Positions 40,274 to 46,390 of a DNA stretch of 64,000 nucleotides are shown piece after piece. The stretch is from Radicibacter daui. Lineage in GTDB: Bacteria; Pseudomonadota; Alphaproteobacteria; Radicibacterales; Radicibacteraceae. The notes beneath the pieces are model-generated. The model searched no databases. It was not told the DNA's origin and worked only from the letters and a program-made list of their open reading frames with translations. The translations under genes were made by a program, and so were the position numbers. Location: positions 3,368,501 to 3,432,500 of the forward strand of contig CP131056.1 in NCBI GenBank assembly GCA_030657355.1, in the 5' to 3' direction. Each line of letters begins with the position of its first letter. Within the stretch, counting starts at the first letter, position 1.

Positions 40274-41615
40274 TGCCTTGATCTTGTCGTTCGTCATGAT
40301 GGCCGCGCCGGTGTTGCCGGCATTGGCACAGGGCCGTTCCAAAGGGCCATCAGTCATCCGGGATGCCGAAATCGAGCACACCCTGAGGACCTATGCCGAG
40401 CCCTTGCTGGATGCGGCAGGGCTTTCTTCGCAGGCGGTTCGCATCATCATCATTGATGACCGGGTTATCAATGCTTTCGTGTCTGGTGGGCAGAACCTTT
40501 TCTTCTATACCGGTCTCCTGAGAGCAACCGACACCGCCGGCCAGCTCTACGGCGTCATGGCACATGAAATTGGGCATATTGCGGGCGGACATCTGATTGC
40601 TGGCCAGGCGGCCATGGCCAACGCCTCGCGCCTTGCCATGATCACCGGCATCCTTGGCCTTGCCGCCGGTGTGGCAAGTGGTCACGCCGATGCCGGCATC
40701 GCCGCCACGCTGGGCGGCATGAGTTCGGCGCAAAGCAGCCTGATGGCCTTCACCCGCGAGCAGGAAGCCTCGGCCGATACCGCCGCGCTCAAATTCCTCG
40801 ACGCCAACGGCCTTTCCGCCCAGGGCATGGCCGACTTCCTGGACAAGCTCCTGAAGATGGAAGGCACCTCCAGCGCTGACGATGCCTTCTGGCGCTCGCA
40901 CCCGCTGACCTCCCAGCGCGTCAACCAAGTGCGCAGCCATGTATCCGACAGCCCCTATGCCAAGGTGCCGGATCCGCCCGAATGGGCCGAAAGCCATGCC
41001 CGCATGGTGGCCAAGCTCGACGGTTTCATCGATCCGGACCGGGCGCTCGTCAAATATACGGCGGCCGACAAGAGCTTTGCCGGCCGCTATGGCCGTGCCA
41101 TCGCGCTCTACCGCACCGGCAAGATCGAGGATGCGCTGACCCTGCTGGACAGCCTCATCAAGCTGGAGCCGGACAATCCTTTCCTCTACGAGCTGCGCGG
41201 CCAGATCCTGTTCGAGAACGGGCGCGGCAAGGAAGCGCTCGCCCCTTACGCCAAAAGCGTGAGCCTGATGCCGGATTCGGACCTGTTGCAGCAGGGCTAT
41301 GCCCATGCGCTGGTGGAAGATGGCGACCCGGCCAACCTGACCAGGGCGGTGGATGCGCTCAACCGGGCCGTCGCCATCGATGGCACCGAGCCCTTCACCT
41401 GGCACCTGATGGCGATTGCCGAAGGCCGCCTTGGCCATGATGGCCTCGCCGTGGTGGCGCTTGCCGAAGAATCCCTGCTCAATGGCAACCTCAAGGACGC
41501 CGAAGGGCAGGCCAAACGCGGCCTCGACCTGCTGCCGGCCGGCTCGCAGGGCGCGCTTCGCGCCGAGGACGTGCTGGCCGATGTCAGCCGCCAGAAGGCG
41601 CTCAAGAAGAATTGA
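40263..41615 (+). CDS. Periplasmic M48 metalloprotease with TPR repeats (BepA-like)
   Basis: A 450-residue protein with a signal peptide (about 1-23, ending PALAQ). Zinc ligands are in HEIGHIAGGH (His about residue 100) and the downstream Glu in REQEASADTAALK. TPR-like repeats fill about 270-430 (AIALYRTGKIEDALTLLDSL, and following). This is the BepA/YfgC layout, a periplasmic protease and chaperone acting on outer-membrane proteins such as LptD. It is followed by a DsbA-family gene (62-base gap), consistent with disulfide-containing client proteins. Confidence 0.94.
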   Translation: MRVIALILSFVMMAAPVLPALAQGRSKGPSVIRDAEIEHTLRTYAEPLLDAAGLSSQAVRIIIIDDRVINAFVSGGQNLFFYTGLLRATDTAGQLYGVMAHEIGHIAGGHLIAGQAAMANASRLAMITGILGLAAGVASGHADAGIAATLGGMSSAQSSLMAFTREQEASADTAALKFLDANGLSAQGMADFLDKLLKMEGTSSADDAFWRSHPLTSQRVNQVRSHVSDSPYAKVPDPPEWAESHARMVAKLDGFIDPDRALVKYTAADKSFAGRYGRAIALYRTGKIEDALTLLDSLIKLEPDNPFLYELRGQILFENGRGKEALAPYAKSVSLMPDSDLLQQGYAHALVEDGDPANLTRAVDALNRAVAIDGTEPFTWHLMAIAEGRLGHDGLAVVALAEESLLNGNLKDAEGQAKRGLDLLPAGSQGALRAEDVLADVSRQKALKKN

Positions 41616-41677
41616 CCGCGACAAGCCCCGCAAATTCGTTACAGGGTCTTGTCCGCACCGCTCCGGGAGATCGATCG

Positions 41678-42448
41678 ATGTTTACCCCCCGCCGCCGCCC
41701 GCTGCTCTCCGCAGCCCTGGCCATGGCGCTTGTTGCCGGCCCGCTGATGGCGCCCGTCGCCCGCGCCGATGATGCCGCCCCGCTCAGCCCCGCCCAGCAG
41801 GACGCCGTGCGTGCCCTGGTGCGCGAAACGCTGGTCAAGAACCCGGAAATCATCATGGAGGCGCTGCAGGAGCTGAAGAAGCAGCAGGTCGCCCAACAGG
41901 AAGCCAGCCAGAAGGGCATGATGGCCTCCAAGCAGCAGGCGCTCTATGGCGACGAGCGCGACCTTTCCGTGGGTAACCTCAAGGGCGACGTCACGCTGGT
42001 CGAGTTCATGGATTACCAGTGCGGCTACTGCAAGGCCGTCTACCAGGACCTGCAGGATGTGGTGAAGGCCGACGGCAATACCCGCCTCGTCTACAAGGAA
42101 TATCCCATCCTCGGCCCCGGCTCGGTGCTGGCGGCGCAAGCGGCCCTCGCCTCAAAAAAGCAGGGCAAGTACGAGGAATTTCATGATGTGCTGATGCGCT
42201 ATCGCGGCCGGATGGACGAGGAGACGGTGATGCGCCTCGCCAAATCCATCGACCTCGACACCGACCGGCTCAAGACCGACATGAAGAGCGCGGAAGTGAC
42301 CGGCCAGTTGCAGGCCACCATGGATCTCGGCCGGGCGCTCGGCGTGGACGGCACCCCCGGCTTCGTCATCGGCGACAAGCTGGTGCCGGGCGCCATCAGC
42401 TCGGAAGAGCTGAAGGACCTCATCGACAAGAAGCGTGCGGAAGGCTGA
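41678..42448 (+). CDS. Periplasmic DsbA-family thiol-disulfide oxidoreductase
   Basis: A 256-residue protein. The signal peptide covers about 1-30 (VARA cleavage). An N-terminal helical extension (about 38-90, acidic-basic heptads) precedes the thioredoxin fold, as in ScsC or DsbA-like proteins that oligomerise. The active site is Cys115-Gly-Tyr-Cys118, and the cis-proline loop is GTPGF. The start at 41678 has a GGGAGA ribosome site; the frame from 41612 is rejected. It is five bases before the HAD gene, so they form one operon with the M48 gene. Confidence 0.92.
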   Translation: MFTPRRRPLLSAALAMALVAGPLMAPVARADDAAPLSPAQQDAVRALVRETLVKNPEIIMEALQELKKQQVAQQEASQKGMMASKQQALYGDERDLSVGNLKGDVTLVEFMDYQCGYCKAVYQDLQDVVKADGNTRLVYKEYPILGPGSVLAAQAALASKKQGKYEEFHDVLMRYRGRMDEETVMRLAKSIDLDTDRLKTDMKSAEVTGQLQATMDLGRALGVDGTPGFVIGDKLVPGAISSEELKDLIDKKRAEG

Positions 42449-42453
42449 GACAA

Positions 42454-43110
42454 GTGGACAAGGTTTTGACTGAAGGCACCGGCGGCATCCTGCACGGCGA
42501 AGGCACCCCGGACATCGTCGTCTTCGATATCGGCGGCGTGCTGCTGGACTGGGACCCGCGTTACCTCTATCGCCAGCTCATCCATGACGAGGACGAGCGC
42601 GAGCAGTTTCTCTCCACGGTCTGCACCATGGCCTGGAACGAGGAGCAGGATCGCGGCCGCAGCTTCGACCAGGCGGTGACCGACCTTGTGCTGGTGCACC
42701 CGGACAAGGCGGACCTTATCCACGCCTACAACACCCGTTGGCCGGAGATGATCAGCGGCCCCATCCTGCGCACGGTGGAACTGCTGGAGCAGCTGGACGA
42801 GGCGGGCGTGCCCATCTACGCGCTCACCAACTTCAACGACATCAAGTTCCAGCTTGCCCGCTCGCTCTTCCCCTTCCTCAACCGCTTCAAGGGCGTGGTG
42901 GTTTCGGCGGAAGAAAAGCTGATCAAGCCGGACCCGGCGATCTGGAAGGTGCTGTTCGAGCGCTACGAACTCGACCCGGCGCGCTGCCTCTATACCGACG
43001 ACCGGCTGGATAACTGCCAGGTCGCGGCCAGCCTTGGCATGCATGCCGTGCATTTCACCGGCCCGGCGGCGCTGGAAAAGGCGCTGAAACAGTTCGGCCT
43101 GATGAAATAA
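42454..43110 (+). CDS. HAD-family hydrolase (IA subfamily)
   Basis: A 218-residue phosphatase-like protein. Motif I is DIGGVLLDWD with the nucleophile at Asp25; the second acid is replaced by Gly, as in YihX-type members. Motif II Thr lies in ALTNFND, Lys in KLIKPDP, and motif IV in YTDDRLDN. It starts with GTG five bases after the DsbA-type gene. The substrate is unknown; sugar phosphates or organic halides are typical of the family. Confidence 0.88.
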   Translation: MDKVLTEGTGGILHGEGTPDIVVFDIGGVLLDWDPRYLYRQLIHDEDEREQFLSTVCTMAWNEEQDRGRSFDQAVTDLVLVHPDKADLIHAYNTRWPEMISGPILRTVELLEQLDEAGVPIYALTNFNDIKFQLARSLFPFLNRFKGVVVSAEEKLIKPDPAIWKVLFERYELDPARCLYTDDRLDNCQVAASLGMHAVHFTGPAALEKALKQFGLMK

Positions 43111-43174: not shown

Positions 43175-43705
43175 TCAGCCGCCCTCGGGCCTTTCCGGCG
43201 GCGGACCGCGATCATCCATCGGGCCGCCCGGCATGTCCGGCGGTCCGGGGGGGCCATGTTCGGCGCGCCGTGCCATCAATTCGCGGCCTTCCGGCCCCAC
43301 CTTGCCCGCCGTCTCCAGAATGCCGTCCTGGAACGAGGCACGGATTTTGGTATCGGATGCCGAGAGTTCATCCAGCGCCGCCTTGAGCGCCGCCGGATCG
43401 AAGGGATCGGCCCGCAGCGCCGCCGATACCTTTTGCCGTGCCGCCTTCATGTCCTGAAACAGCGGCCGGGCCTCATCGAAATTCTGTTTCCAGATATCCT
43501 TGACCTGATCGAAGATCTCGGGCGTCACCGCCCGCTCCGACAGGCCCAGCATTGCCATGGGCATCGGCATTCCCGGTCCGCCCATCGGGCCGGGCCCACG
43601 CCGGAAGTTGCCGTTCATCGCCCACGCGGTGAGAAACCCCACCAGAAACACATTGACCAGCACCGAAGTGCCGAGGGCGACTGCCGCCCATCTGCCCCGT
43701 GTCAT
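43175..43705 (-). CDS. Periplasmic heavy-metal-sensor-like protein (CpxP/CnrX-type), last gene of the sigma operon
   Basis: A 176-residue protein with one N-terminal membrane helix (about 6-29) that anchors a periplasmic helical domain. The domain contains a LTxxQ-like helical hairpin region (RPLFQDMKAARQKVSAALRA and following), then a Pro/Gly-rich tail ending PPPERPEGG. This layout matches the periplasmic heavy-metal sensor family. The start at 43705 overlaps the anti-sigma stop in an ATGA, so it is preferred over 43714. It probably senses metal or misfolded protein and signals to the anti-sigma factor encoded upstream. Confidence 0.85.
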   Translation of the reverse strand: MTRGRWAAVALGTSVLVNVFLVGFLTAWAMNGNFRRGPGPMGGPGMPMPMAMLGLSERAVTPEIFDQVKDIWKQNFDEARPLFQDMKAARQKVSAALRADPFDPAALKAALDELSASDTKIRASFQDGILETAGKVGPEGRELMARRAEHGPPGPPDMPGGPMDDRGPPPERPEGG

Positions 43706-44220
43706 TGACCCCATCCTTCCTGGCCGGTTGCCACCAGCCCGTAGCCGCTGCTGCCATAGGCAATGCTGGCGACGTCAACCGGCCGGTAGAGATCATCCTG
43801 ATCATTATAAGCCGTACCGCCCGTTGCCCCGGTTGAAGGGGGTGGCACCAGGGTGCCGGCGACAAGGCCGATGACGGCGGCGGTGCAAAGCCCCGCAGCC
43901 GGTCTCAAGATGGCAGGACGCATCGCCTGGCGTAGCCAGACGGCAAGTCGCACCGCCATAAAGGGTTTGCGGGCTTCCGCCGCCCGCTGCTGCGGCCGGC
44001 TGTTCGTGAGCACGGCATTGAGGCGCTGCAGGTAACCCTGTGGCAAAGGCTCGTTCGCCACGGCCGCCAGCAGGCTGTCAAGCCCACGCTCATTTTCCAG
44101 CACGCCGGCAGGCGCGCTGCTTTCCAGCAGGGCAAGGGCATCGTCGCGTTCGGCGGCGGGCCAGCGCGCAGCATCGCTGCCATAGGCGGCAATGATTTCC
44201 AAAAGGCGCTTGTTATCCAT
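43702..44220 (-). CDS. Anti-sigma factor (membrane-anchored)
   Basis: A 172-residue protein. The cytoplasmic part (about 1-100) is a helical anti-sigma-like region beginning DNKRLLEIIAAYGSDAARWPAAER. One membrane helix lies at about 105-125 (PAAGLCTAAVIGLVAG), and the periplasmic tail of about 45 residues is polar. No ZAS cysteine-histidine motif is seen. The start at 44220 overlaps the sigma gene stop by eight bases, giving translational coupling with the ECF sigma factor it most likely inhibits. Confidence 0.85.
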   Translation of the reverse strand: MDNKRLLEIIAAYGSDAARWPAAERDDALALLESSAPAGVLENERGLDSLLAAVANEPLPQGYLQRLNAVLTNSRPQQRAAEARKPFMAVRLAVWLRQAMRPAILRPAAGLCTAAVIGLVAGTLVPPPSTGATGGTAYNDQDDLYRPVDVASIAYGSSGYGLVATGQEGWGQ

Positions 44221-44842
44221 CGTCGCGCTCCAGCAATTCCGCCCGCCTGTCTTCCAGCGTGGTGCGCAGCGTGCGCCGCGCCCGTGCCAGCAGGGATTCA
44301 AGGGCCTCGATGCTGACGTCCAGCACCGAGGCGGCTTCTGCCCCGCTCAACCCCTGAAAGTGGGTGAGCTGGACTGCCGTGCGTTGCCGCTCCGGCAAGG
44401 TTTGTAGTGCCTCGTTCACCACCGCCCGCCGCTGGACGGCGGCAAAGGCAGCCTCCGGCCCTGGGGACGGGTCCGGCATCGCCTCTGCCGCCTCCAGCCC
44501 CTCTTCCCGGCGGCGGCGCAGCCGGTCGAGGGCAAGGCGATAGATCACCTTGTGCAGCCAGGTGGAGATGCGGGCGAGCGGGCGCCAGTCCGGCGCCTGC
44601 TTCCACAACCGCACCATCGCCTCCTGGGCAATGTCCTCCGCCTCCTCGCTGTCGCGCAGCAACCGGAAGGCGAAGCGGTAGGCGGCAGGCCCCTGTTGTT
44701 CCACGACCACACGGCAAGCCTCCGGCTCCCCGCGCGCGACACCAAGCATCAGCGCGGCTTCGACGGCCAGCTCATCGGATCGTGTCAAAGGGGTTACCGC
44801 CTCCGGCTCATAGGCATTTCCACGTGTTGCTATACTCTTCAC
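44213..44842 (-). CDS. ECF-type RNA polymerase sigma factor
   Basis: A 209-residue sigma factor with only regions 2 and 4. Region 2 (about 45-110) holds AYRFAFRLLRDSEEAEDIAQEAMVRLW and the -10-recognising WLHKVIYRLALDRLRRRRE. Region 4 (about 140-200) holds TLPERQRTAVQLTHFQGLSG and the -35 HTH. An approximately 40-residue N-terminal lead is longer than usual. It overlaps the EF-hand gene stop by four bases (ATGA). It is expected to drive its own operon and a small stress regulon. Confidence 0.94.
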   Translation of the reverse strand: MKSIATRGNAYEPEAVTPLTRSDELAVEAALMLGVARGEPEACRVVVEQQGPAAYRFAFRLLRDSEEAEDIAQEAMVRLWKQAPDWRPLARISTWLHKVIYRLALDRLRRRREEGLEAAEAMPDPSPGPEAAFAAVQRRAVVNEALQTLPERQRTAVQLTHFQGLSGAEAASVLDVSIEALESLLARARRTLRTTLEDRRAELLERDDG

Positions 44843-45444
44843 GGAGCCGAACCGGCATCATCACCCTCCGGTGCAGCATCCGGCGTTGCCGGGTCCATGA
44901 CCGGCCCGGGAGCCGCCATCATGCCTGCAGGGCCATGATGCATCATCCCCGGACCGCCAAAACCACCCATGCCGAAACCGCCCGCATGGTGCATCGGCTC
45001 GCGATTGGCCGCCGCCAGCTCATCGCCGCTCAGCTGCCCGTCGCCATTGGTGTCGAACCGTGCGAGCAACATCGTCGCCTCGCGCGATCCGGCAATCTGG
45101 AAGTCGGCCGCATCCACAACACCGTCATGGTTGCGGTCCATCCGCTTCAGCATGAACTCGGCGCGGCGCTGCTGCTGCCAGGCAACCAGCTCGTCCGCAC
45201 TCACCTTGCCGTCGCCATTGGCATCCATGGCCTTCAACTGGTCCGCCTGCGCTGCCTTGATCTCCTCGGCGGAAATGATGCCGTCGGCGTTGGTATCGAA
45301 ACGCTGCAGCAACATCATGGCGCGGTTGGGCGCCTCACCCCCGACCGGCGGTTTGGCGGCTTCGGCCACGGCGCTGGCCAGCACTGCGATGGTACCCACG
45401 CTGCCGGCGAGGCCGGCGACCATCAGGAAAGAACGAAGTTTCAT
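44839..45444 (-). CDS. Periplasmic four-EF-hand protein, first gene of the sigma operon
   Basis: A 201-residue protein with a signal peptide (about 1-29). Four canonical calcium loops are present: Asp50-Glu61 (DTNADGIISAEE), Asp74-Glu85 (DANGDGKVSADE), Asp103-Asp114 (DRNHDGVVDAAD) and Asp131-Glu142 (DTNGDGQLSGDE). The C-terminal 50 residues are rich in Gly, Met, His and Pro, which could bind metals such as copper. It is translationally coupled to the ECF sigma gene. A calcium- or metal-responsive input to the sigma system is inferred from the operon. Confidence 0.92.
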   Translation of the reverse strand: MKLRSFLMVAGLAGSVGTIAVLASAVAEAAKPPVGGEAPNRAMMLLQRFDTNADGIISAEEIKAAQADQLKAMDANGDGKVSADELVAWQQQRRAEFMLKRMDRNHDGVVDAADFQIAGSREATMLLARFDTNGDGQLSGDELAAANREPMHHAGGFGMGGFGGPGMMHHGPAGMMAAPGPVMDPATPDAAPEGDDAGSAP

Positions 45445-45583: not shown

Positions 45584-46390
45584 TCAGCCGGCGGGCGGCA
45601 GTGGCCAGGGCGCACGGGAAAGTTCGCCGATGAGCCCGGCAAGGCCGGCAGCGGCATGGTCGAGGATCGCCCGGCCAATATCGGCGCTGGCCAGCCGGGC
45701 ATCGCCCGTCACCCCCTCCGGATTCAGATCTTCCGCTGCCCAGGCAAACCCCGCCGGCCCCTGCGGCGAGAAATGCTGCCAGCCCTCGGCCTTCAGCGCC
45801 GCGGTGCGCGAGGGGAAATCGCGTACCTCCCCCTGCCGCACCAACTCCGGCGCCAGATGCAGCAGCAGCGACGTTTCCACCGCCCCGCCATGGATGCCGA
45901 GCTTCATCTCCTGCGGCGGCAACACCCCTTCCGGCAGGCCGAAGCCAAACCAGTTGAGCGGAACGGCGCACATGCCCTCTTCCATGCGCAAGCGCCGGCA
46001 GACGATTTCGCTGACCTCCGGCTGGCCGCCATGACCGTTGAGGATCAGCAGCTTTTTAAAGCCCTGCCGGGCCAGCGGACGCACGATACCGCCCCAGAGA
46101 TTTGCCAGTAAATCGGGCTCGGCGCTGAGCGTGCCGGCGAAATTCGCGTGCTCCGCGCTCCAGCCCACGGCCTGTGCCGGCAACACCACGGCCGGCACGT
46201 CGGCAGCAAGCCGGGTGAGCGCTGCCTCCACCACCGCCTCGGCAATGCGGGTATCGGTATCGAGCGGCAGATGCGGCCCGTGCTGCTCGGTCGCCCCTAC
46301 CGGCAACACCAGCACGGTGCGCTCGCGGTCGAGAGCACCCGTTTCCGGCCCCGTCATCTGGCCCCAGCGCCGGATCTGGCTGATCGTCAT
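45584..46390 (-). CDS. Creatininase family protein (second copy)
   Basis: A 268-residue member of the same metal-amidohydrolase family as 31293-32039. Motifs are GATEQHGPHLPLDTDT (Glu, His, Asp), LNGHGGQ (His) and HGGAVETSLLL (Glu). It is closer to the classic creatininase pattern than the first copy. It stands upstream of the EF-hand operon on the same strand, but 139 bases separate them, so it is likely an independent unit. Confidence 0.9.
   Translation of the reverse strand: MTISQIRRWGQMTGPETGALDRERTVLVLPVGATEQHGPHLPLDTDTRIAEAVVEAALTRLAADVPAVVLPAQAVGWSAEHANFAGTLSAEPDLLANLWGGIVRPLARQGFKKLLILNGHGGQPEVSEIVCRRLRMEEGMCAVPLNWFGFGLPEGVLPPQEMKLGIHGGAVETSLLLHLAPELVRQGEVRDFPSRTAALKAEGWQHFSPQGPAGFAWAAEDLNPEGVTGDARLASADIGRAILDHAAAGLAGLIGELSRAPWPLPPAG

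Follow-up and report, generated by a model that had tools for sequence, protein, structure and literature searches.

The window, a 64,000-nucleotide stretch of the Radicibacter daui genome, contains four minus-strand genes that constitute one operon, with a promoter on its 5' side and a strong terminator on its 3' side. The first gene (45444-44839) encodes a secreted, CaBP-like EF-hand protein of 201 aa (Pfam EF-hand_5, E 7e-22, four stretches) and holds a conserved position. It is followed by genes for a SigV-like ECF sigma factor (44842-44213; Sigma70_r2, 7e-18, and r4_2, 5e-13), a putative anti-sigma factor of 172 aa with a single membrane helix (44220-43702; no Pfam match) and a membrane-anchored sensor of 176 aa (43705-43175) with a Metal_resist domain (PF13801, E 7e-23) of predicted CnrX/CpxP-type fold. 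A sequence-only reading of this DNA had proposed the same four genes; they proved to be real, and the conservation counts given below speak against chance. The ECF-type promoter (45544-45514, minus strand) comprises a -35 element, GCGACGGAA (45544-45536), a 17-nt spacer counted from GACGG, and a -10 element, CGTTTGA (45520-45514). At the other end, a 15-bp hairpin followed by TTTTTATTT (43142-43105, minus strand; -29.5 kcal/mol in ViennaRNA) forms an intrinsic terminator, which was absent from the terminator scan list and visible on direct folding. The operon is flanked by a creatininase-family gene on the same strand (45584-46390) and by a convergent HAD hydrolase gene (42454-43110). Two genes off the operon, on the opposite strand, lies a gene for a DsbA-like thioredoxin with an ScsC N-terminal domain of the copper-tolerance type (41612-42448).

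The four genes had been described as overlapping by 4, 8 and 4 bases. The 8-base overlap between the sigma and anti-sigma genes and the 4-base overlap between the anti-sigma and sensor genes hold, and a plausible ribosome-binding site accompanies each. The first 4-base overlap is doubtful: it requires a GTG start (44842) that lacks a good ribosome-binding site, and the start is more likely a TTG at 44788, which has GGAGG about 10 nt before it. The gap between the EF-hand and sigma genes is then 50 nt, the type of spacing seen in most relatives.

The EF-hand protein begins with a clear Sec-type signal sequence (...AVAEA-A), and a signal-like N-terminus was found in 74 of the 76 family members examined. 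All four EF loops had initially been taken as intact; four are present and three are fully canonical, the third loop (DRNHDGVVDAAD) ending in Asp instead of Glu. Across 286 loops of the family, position 12 was Glu in 276 and Asp in 10, with the search pattern itself requiring E, D or Q at that position. This loop pattern fits Ca2+. The His/Met-rich tail that had also been pointed out (59 residues with 4 His and 7 Met) is real, and it is a lineage-specific feature particular to the window protein, the median tail in the family being 18.5 residues. An identity with lanmodulin was rejected, the NCBIfam score reaching 35.1 bits of the 135 needed and loop position 2 being T, A, R and T, with no Pro.

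The sigma factor scored 210.5 bits against NCBIfam PRK05602 (cut-off 208) and is up to 43-50% identical to its relatives, with 45-50% identity to Caulobacter sigma factors. In a FastTree phylogeny, whose deep branches are weak and which gives no exact branching order inside the ECF type, the window and Caulobacter sigma factors fell together within this type and apart from eight other ECFs, with 96% local support. CnrH was not the nearest solved sigma factor in a phmmer search of the PDB (46.8 bits, against 67.9 for SigE and 62.0 for SigW). The nearest paralogue in the window genome (39% identity; G000:C2:674997-675506, L158:2429-3049) adjoins flagellin-like and FliD-like genes, as does RpoE6 of Azospirillum brasilense (PMC12826043); neither an EF-hand gene, an anti-sigma homologue nor a sensor was found beside this paralogue.

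The 172-aa protein consists of an N-terminal helical domain with a conserved Trp20-Pro21 and one membrane helix with a near-invariant G118xxxG122. Its structural model is confident in the N-terminal part only (pLDDT ~80-97 over residues 1-70). The protein matched no Pfam family, showed no detectable similarity to CnrY and found no counterpart in the PDB by sequence or fold; its putative assignment as an anti-sigma factor comes from position and topology. A profile match to PDB 9sdc ('RelI', E 0.002) was judged spurious because the aligned region is a linker plus membrane helix and the partner is a short, differently built protein.

The sensor matched PF13801 with 81.6 bits (curated cut-off 29.2), as did 18 of 18 aligned members. 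AlphaFold2 models the sensor (pLDDT 83) as a long helix at the N terminus plus a helical-hairpin domain. Foldseek placed CnrX at the top (TM by target 0.64-0.72, probability 1.00, E only 0.013-0.08), with ZraP, CpxP and Spy next. VIA-align gave Z of 9.5-11.3 for ZraP and CnrX, which is supportive only, since unrelated helical proteins reach about 10. The sequence profile of the sensor family reached CpxP at 8e-6, Spy at 2e-5, ZraP at 6e-4, NccX at 0.02 and CnrX at ~0.2 or worse. As modelled, the sensor thus has the CnrX/ZraP/CpxP fold, which bears out the earlier description of a membrane-anchored protein of CpxP/CnrX type.

Its further description as a metal sensor fared less well. The window sensor has a single His (150) and no Cys, and in the alignment of 130 sensors no column is Cys and none is a well-conserved His, the best His column reaching 28% and being Gln in the window. 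The CnrX metal site uses His/Glu ligands besides Met123 and is not conserved in these sensors. CnrX signalling depends on its metal site, Met123 included (review PMC7689651). A Met-rich segment does follow the sensor helix in the window genome. The metal-sensor reading is weak because no His or Cys is conserved at the level of the CnrX ligands and the His/Met-rich tail of the EF-hand protein is lineage-specific; in addition, CnrH stands no nearer to the sigma factor than other ECFs do. Among the 130 sensors, the membrane helix keeps Ser14, Asn18 (98%) and Gly23; Asp103 and Arg141 (96%) are conserved as well. Because Asn18 and G118xxxG122 are near-invariant and both lie in membrane helices, their conservation suggests a helix-helix contact between sensor and anti-sigma candidate.

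Conservation was measured across the class Alphaproteobacteria, the closest rank that the window genome shares with any sampled relative. The class sample comprised 387 genomes, in 145 of which the sigma factor found a match with E of 1e-25 or lower. In 69 of the 126 loci read, and in 32 of 57 families, the gene immediately 5' of this ECF type encodes an EF-hand protein (at least two EF loops, same strand); among 60 other ECF genes one has such a neighbour (Fisher p 1e-14), and that one (L023), a fragment at a contig end, may belong to the module too. Presence of the EF-hand gene is nearly uniform within families, and the sigma tree needs 16 changes to account for it, against 48 in shuffles. 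A homologue of the anti-sigma candidate follows the sigma gene in 146 of 165 loci and a sensor homologue is found in 155, with or without an EF-hand gene. The core circuit stands without the EF-hand gene in 62 of the 165; with about half of the sampled loci lacking that gene, the core circuit therefore works without the EF-hand protein. The module is widespread in alphaproteobacteria, and the window holds one member. The sequence-only reading had raised a separation of the two genes in most relatives as a point against itself; the counts above, and the conserved ECF promoter behind which the pair stands, show adjacency instead.

Scattered homologous cores, partial or whole, also occur outside the class: in Burkholderiales (L165, L169, L179; Burkholderiaceae) and in MAGs labelled Lysobacteraceae, Acidobacteria (L183) and Myxococcales (L177), labels that may be wrong. 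The Myxococcales-labelled locus has a six-loop EF-hand gene directly 5'. Published ECF surveys of Bradyrhizobium and S. meliloti gave no EF-hand lead.

Unsupervised spaced-word counting returned GCGACGGA-N15-CGTT as the top motif 5' of the EF-hand genes, present in 18 families against 6-7 in shuffles. Under a fixed rule, the promoter GCGACGGAA-N14-CGTT was found at 70 of 103 EF loci (38 among the 69 class-sample loci, the remainder mostly Caulobacter), with a shuffled mean of 0.55 and 3 on the reverse strand. Of the 62 loci that lack the EF-hand gene, 15 have the promoter ahead of the sigma gene. The conserved promoter thus serves the EF-hand gene, and in other families it drives the sigma gene itself. 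The spacer is 17 nt in the window and 16 in most relatives. For C. vibrioides, the cabp promoter was mapped by 5'RACE as GGAAA-13-CGTTCA, and the 3' end of the primer cabpForw is GCGCGACGGA (PMC13171946). The window promoter shares the form of the mapped one (GGAA-type -35, CGTT -10), with a spacer one base longer. Given this match and the promoter's place before the EF-hand gene, that gene heads an apparently autoregulated operon, and the conservation pattern suggests that the sigma factor itself would recognise GCGACGGAA-N14-CGTT. The notion of a self-contained envelope sigma circuit, with the EF-hand gene as its genuine and conserved first gene, was in this respect upheld.

The periplasmic protein CaBP, with three EF-hands, and SigV of C. 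vibrioides (CCNA_02838 and CCNA_02837) were published in 2026 (PMC13171946). CaBP showed a Ca2+-dependent mobility shift, cabp and sigV were induced by EGTA and acid and regulated each other, EGTA induction required CaBP, and CaBP increased sigV expression; the component linking CaBP to SigV was drawn as a question mark (PMC13171946). An exact primer search for C. vibrioides itself in 75 genomes of the genus found nothing; the primers then served to match its relatives: procabp5 was exact in three loci (L252, L258, L272), sigV-5 had one mismatch in several, and sigV-3 had one in L272. Of 30 Caulobacter loci read (L250-L279), 29 show the EF-hand gene 5' of the sigma gene and the remaining one begins at a contig end; the 26-nt gap between the two genes equals the published start-site distances. 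We identified these loci as the cabp-sigV locus. The novelty of an EF-hand partner, which had been thought absent from described systems, accordingly does not stand, as the EF-hand/ECF pair is already published, though without an anti-sigma factor or sensor, both of which that paper leaves out (PMC13171946).

Like the window, the cabp-sigV locus places a secreted multi-EF-hand protein directly 5' of the same ECF type under the same promoter form, and in genomes of the genus the anti-sigma candidate and the PF13801 sensor lie downstream as well. In L250, for example, the sigma gene is followed by a 157-residue homologue of the anti-sigma candidate and then by a PF13801 protein (3.7e-16). These two proteins are the obvious candidates for the question mark between CaBP and SigV. 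The locus differs from the window in that CaBP has 133 residues and three loops (position 6 of one being Arg), the gap is 26 nt, and an internal sigV promoter is reported. Since cabp and sigV were reported as separately transcribed in C. vibrioides (PMC13171946), the single-operon reading may not hold everywhere. Known before was the cabp-sigV gene pair; new here are the full four-gene composition, the conserved promoter, the anti-sigma and sensor candidates and a link to DUF1800.

Other described systems share parts of the module. CnrYXH/NccYXH of Cupriavidus metallidurans likewise combine an ECF sigma factor, a single-helix anti-sigma factor and a sensor of common fold anchored by its N-terminal helix, but the described system has no EF-hand gene, the CnrX ligands are not conserved in the window module, the window sigma factor is not especially close to CnrH and no similarity to CnrY was detected. 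CpxP, Spy and ZraP share the sensor domain fold and a weak sequence-profile match, but are soluble chaperones or adaptors rather than membrane-anchored ECF partners. In A. brasilense, an operon of rpoE8, a hypothetical gene and a periplasmic heavy metal sensor was raised on RpoE6 overexpression (PMC12826043); judged by description rather than sequence it is probably the same three-gene core, with no EF-hand gene mentioned in that description.

We favor, with a probability of roughly 0.6, the reading that the four genes form an autoregulated circuit responding to envelope stress, akin to the Caulobacter cabp-sigV locus, with the EF-hand product feeding back. The sensor, through its membrane helix, would hold the single-helix anti-sigma factor on the ECF sigma factor until a periplasmic change (in Caulobacter, Ca2+ loss or acid) releases the latter. 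The freed sigma factor would then transcribe its own operon from the conserved promoter, whose first product, a secreted and presumably Ca2+-binding EF-hand protein, could feed back by binding Ca2+ or by touching the sensor. The sequence-only reading had the EF-hand protein possibly competing for the sensed ion or buffering it. We infer both the pairing of anti-sigma candidate and sensor in the membrane and the mode of feedback.

A serious competitor, which we place somewhat short of even odds, treats the EF-hand protein as an output only: a secreted protein that binds Ca2+ or stabilises the envelope, produced while the sigma factor is active and with no sensing role, the sensor reading misfolded protein, acid or membrane damage as its CpxP/Spy relatives do. 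The loci in which the core circuit lacks the EF-hand gene are consistent with this, an abundant output would hold the first position of an autoregulated operon, and CpxP and Spy are the nearest matches of the sensor profile. It is harder to reconcile with C. vibrioides, where EGTA induction needed CaBP and CaBP raised sigV expression (PMC13171946), and with an EF-hand gene that remains beside the sigma gene across dozens of families. We consider improbable a transition-metal circuit of the CnrYXH type, in which Ni, Co, Cu or Zn bound by the sensor would set the sigma factor free to drive metal efflux. The CnrX-like gene content and sensor fold, the Met-rich segment and His/Met-rich tail of the window genome, and a relative (G007) with the promoter 16 nt ahead of an RND efflux adaptor-like frame would agree with it; CnrX, however, needs its metal site (PMC7689651), whereas the aligned sensors conserve no His or Cys and the window sensor has His150 alone, the sensor profile barely reaches CnrX, and CnrH is not the nearest solved sigma factor. 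A chance neighbourhood, with the EF-hand gene merely in front of an unrelated sigma operon, can be dismissed: such genomes commonly encode short secreted EF-hand proteins, but the adjacency kept in 32 families, the clustering of the trait on the tree and the conserved promoter before the EF-hand gene already refute it.

A bolder form of the feedback circuit, which we regard as tentative and rather unlikely as it stands, would make the EF-hand protein a Ca2+-dependent ligand of the CnrX-fold sensor, the two forming a periplasmic Ca2+ switch that gates the membrane anti-sigma factor, with DUF1800/DUF1501 proteins among the output. If true, it would amount to a dedicated bacterial Ca2+-to-transcription pathway across dozens of alphaproteobacterial families, in a field short of well-understood receptor-to-promoter pathways. 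With two proteins named by conserved neighbours for the CaBP-SigV question mark, a promoter consensus kept over about 20 families and DUF1800/DUF1501 proteins, whose function is unknown, proposed as a concrete output, the question of such a Ca2+ pathway becomes open to test in a laboratory strain.

In the window's own genome, the promoter pattern gave 11 matches against 13 in the reversed control, so that a regulon beyond the operon itself is not supported there, and the DUF1800 gene of this genome and its DUF1501-like partner have no recognisable promoter site. Among twelve related genomes, exact promoter sites exceeded the reversed control in most, clearly in Caulobacter. All five Caulobacter-genus genomes tested carry such sites 5' of DUF1800 genes, with differing spacers, and so do families f84 and f5 (weakly f96); in nine genomes outside the sigma-positive set, no DUF1800 gene had one. 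In six loci from families f117, f80, f49 and f38 (L097, L118, L120, L126, L133, L138), a DUF1800 gene stands directly 3' of the sensor gene, and two of these (L120, L138) are five-gene operons with both DUF1800 and EF-hand genes. In several cases DUF1800 is followed by a gene that we take to be DUF1501-like from the usual DUF1800/DUF1501 pairing. Because the same promoter or direct operon linkage accompanies it, DUF1800 is a likely output in those families.

Promoter-like sites were also seen at other genes. One (L297, G007:C38:7348-7374) lies 16 nt ahead of a frame resembling an RND efflux membrane-fusion protein. Another (L302, G417:C2:56391; near-identical in G424 and G471) stands 63 nt ahead of a threonyl-tRNA synthetase-like gene in the Caulobacter genus, where the nearly constant spacer suggests another cause of conservation. 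In two Caulobacter-genus genomes (L293, L305), such sites precede genes for alpha/beta-hydrolase-like secreted proteins by 37 and 8 nt.
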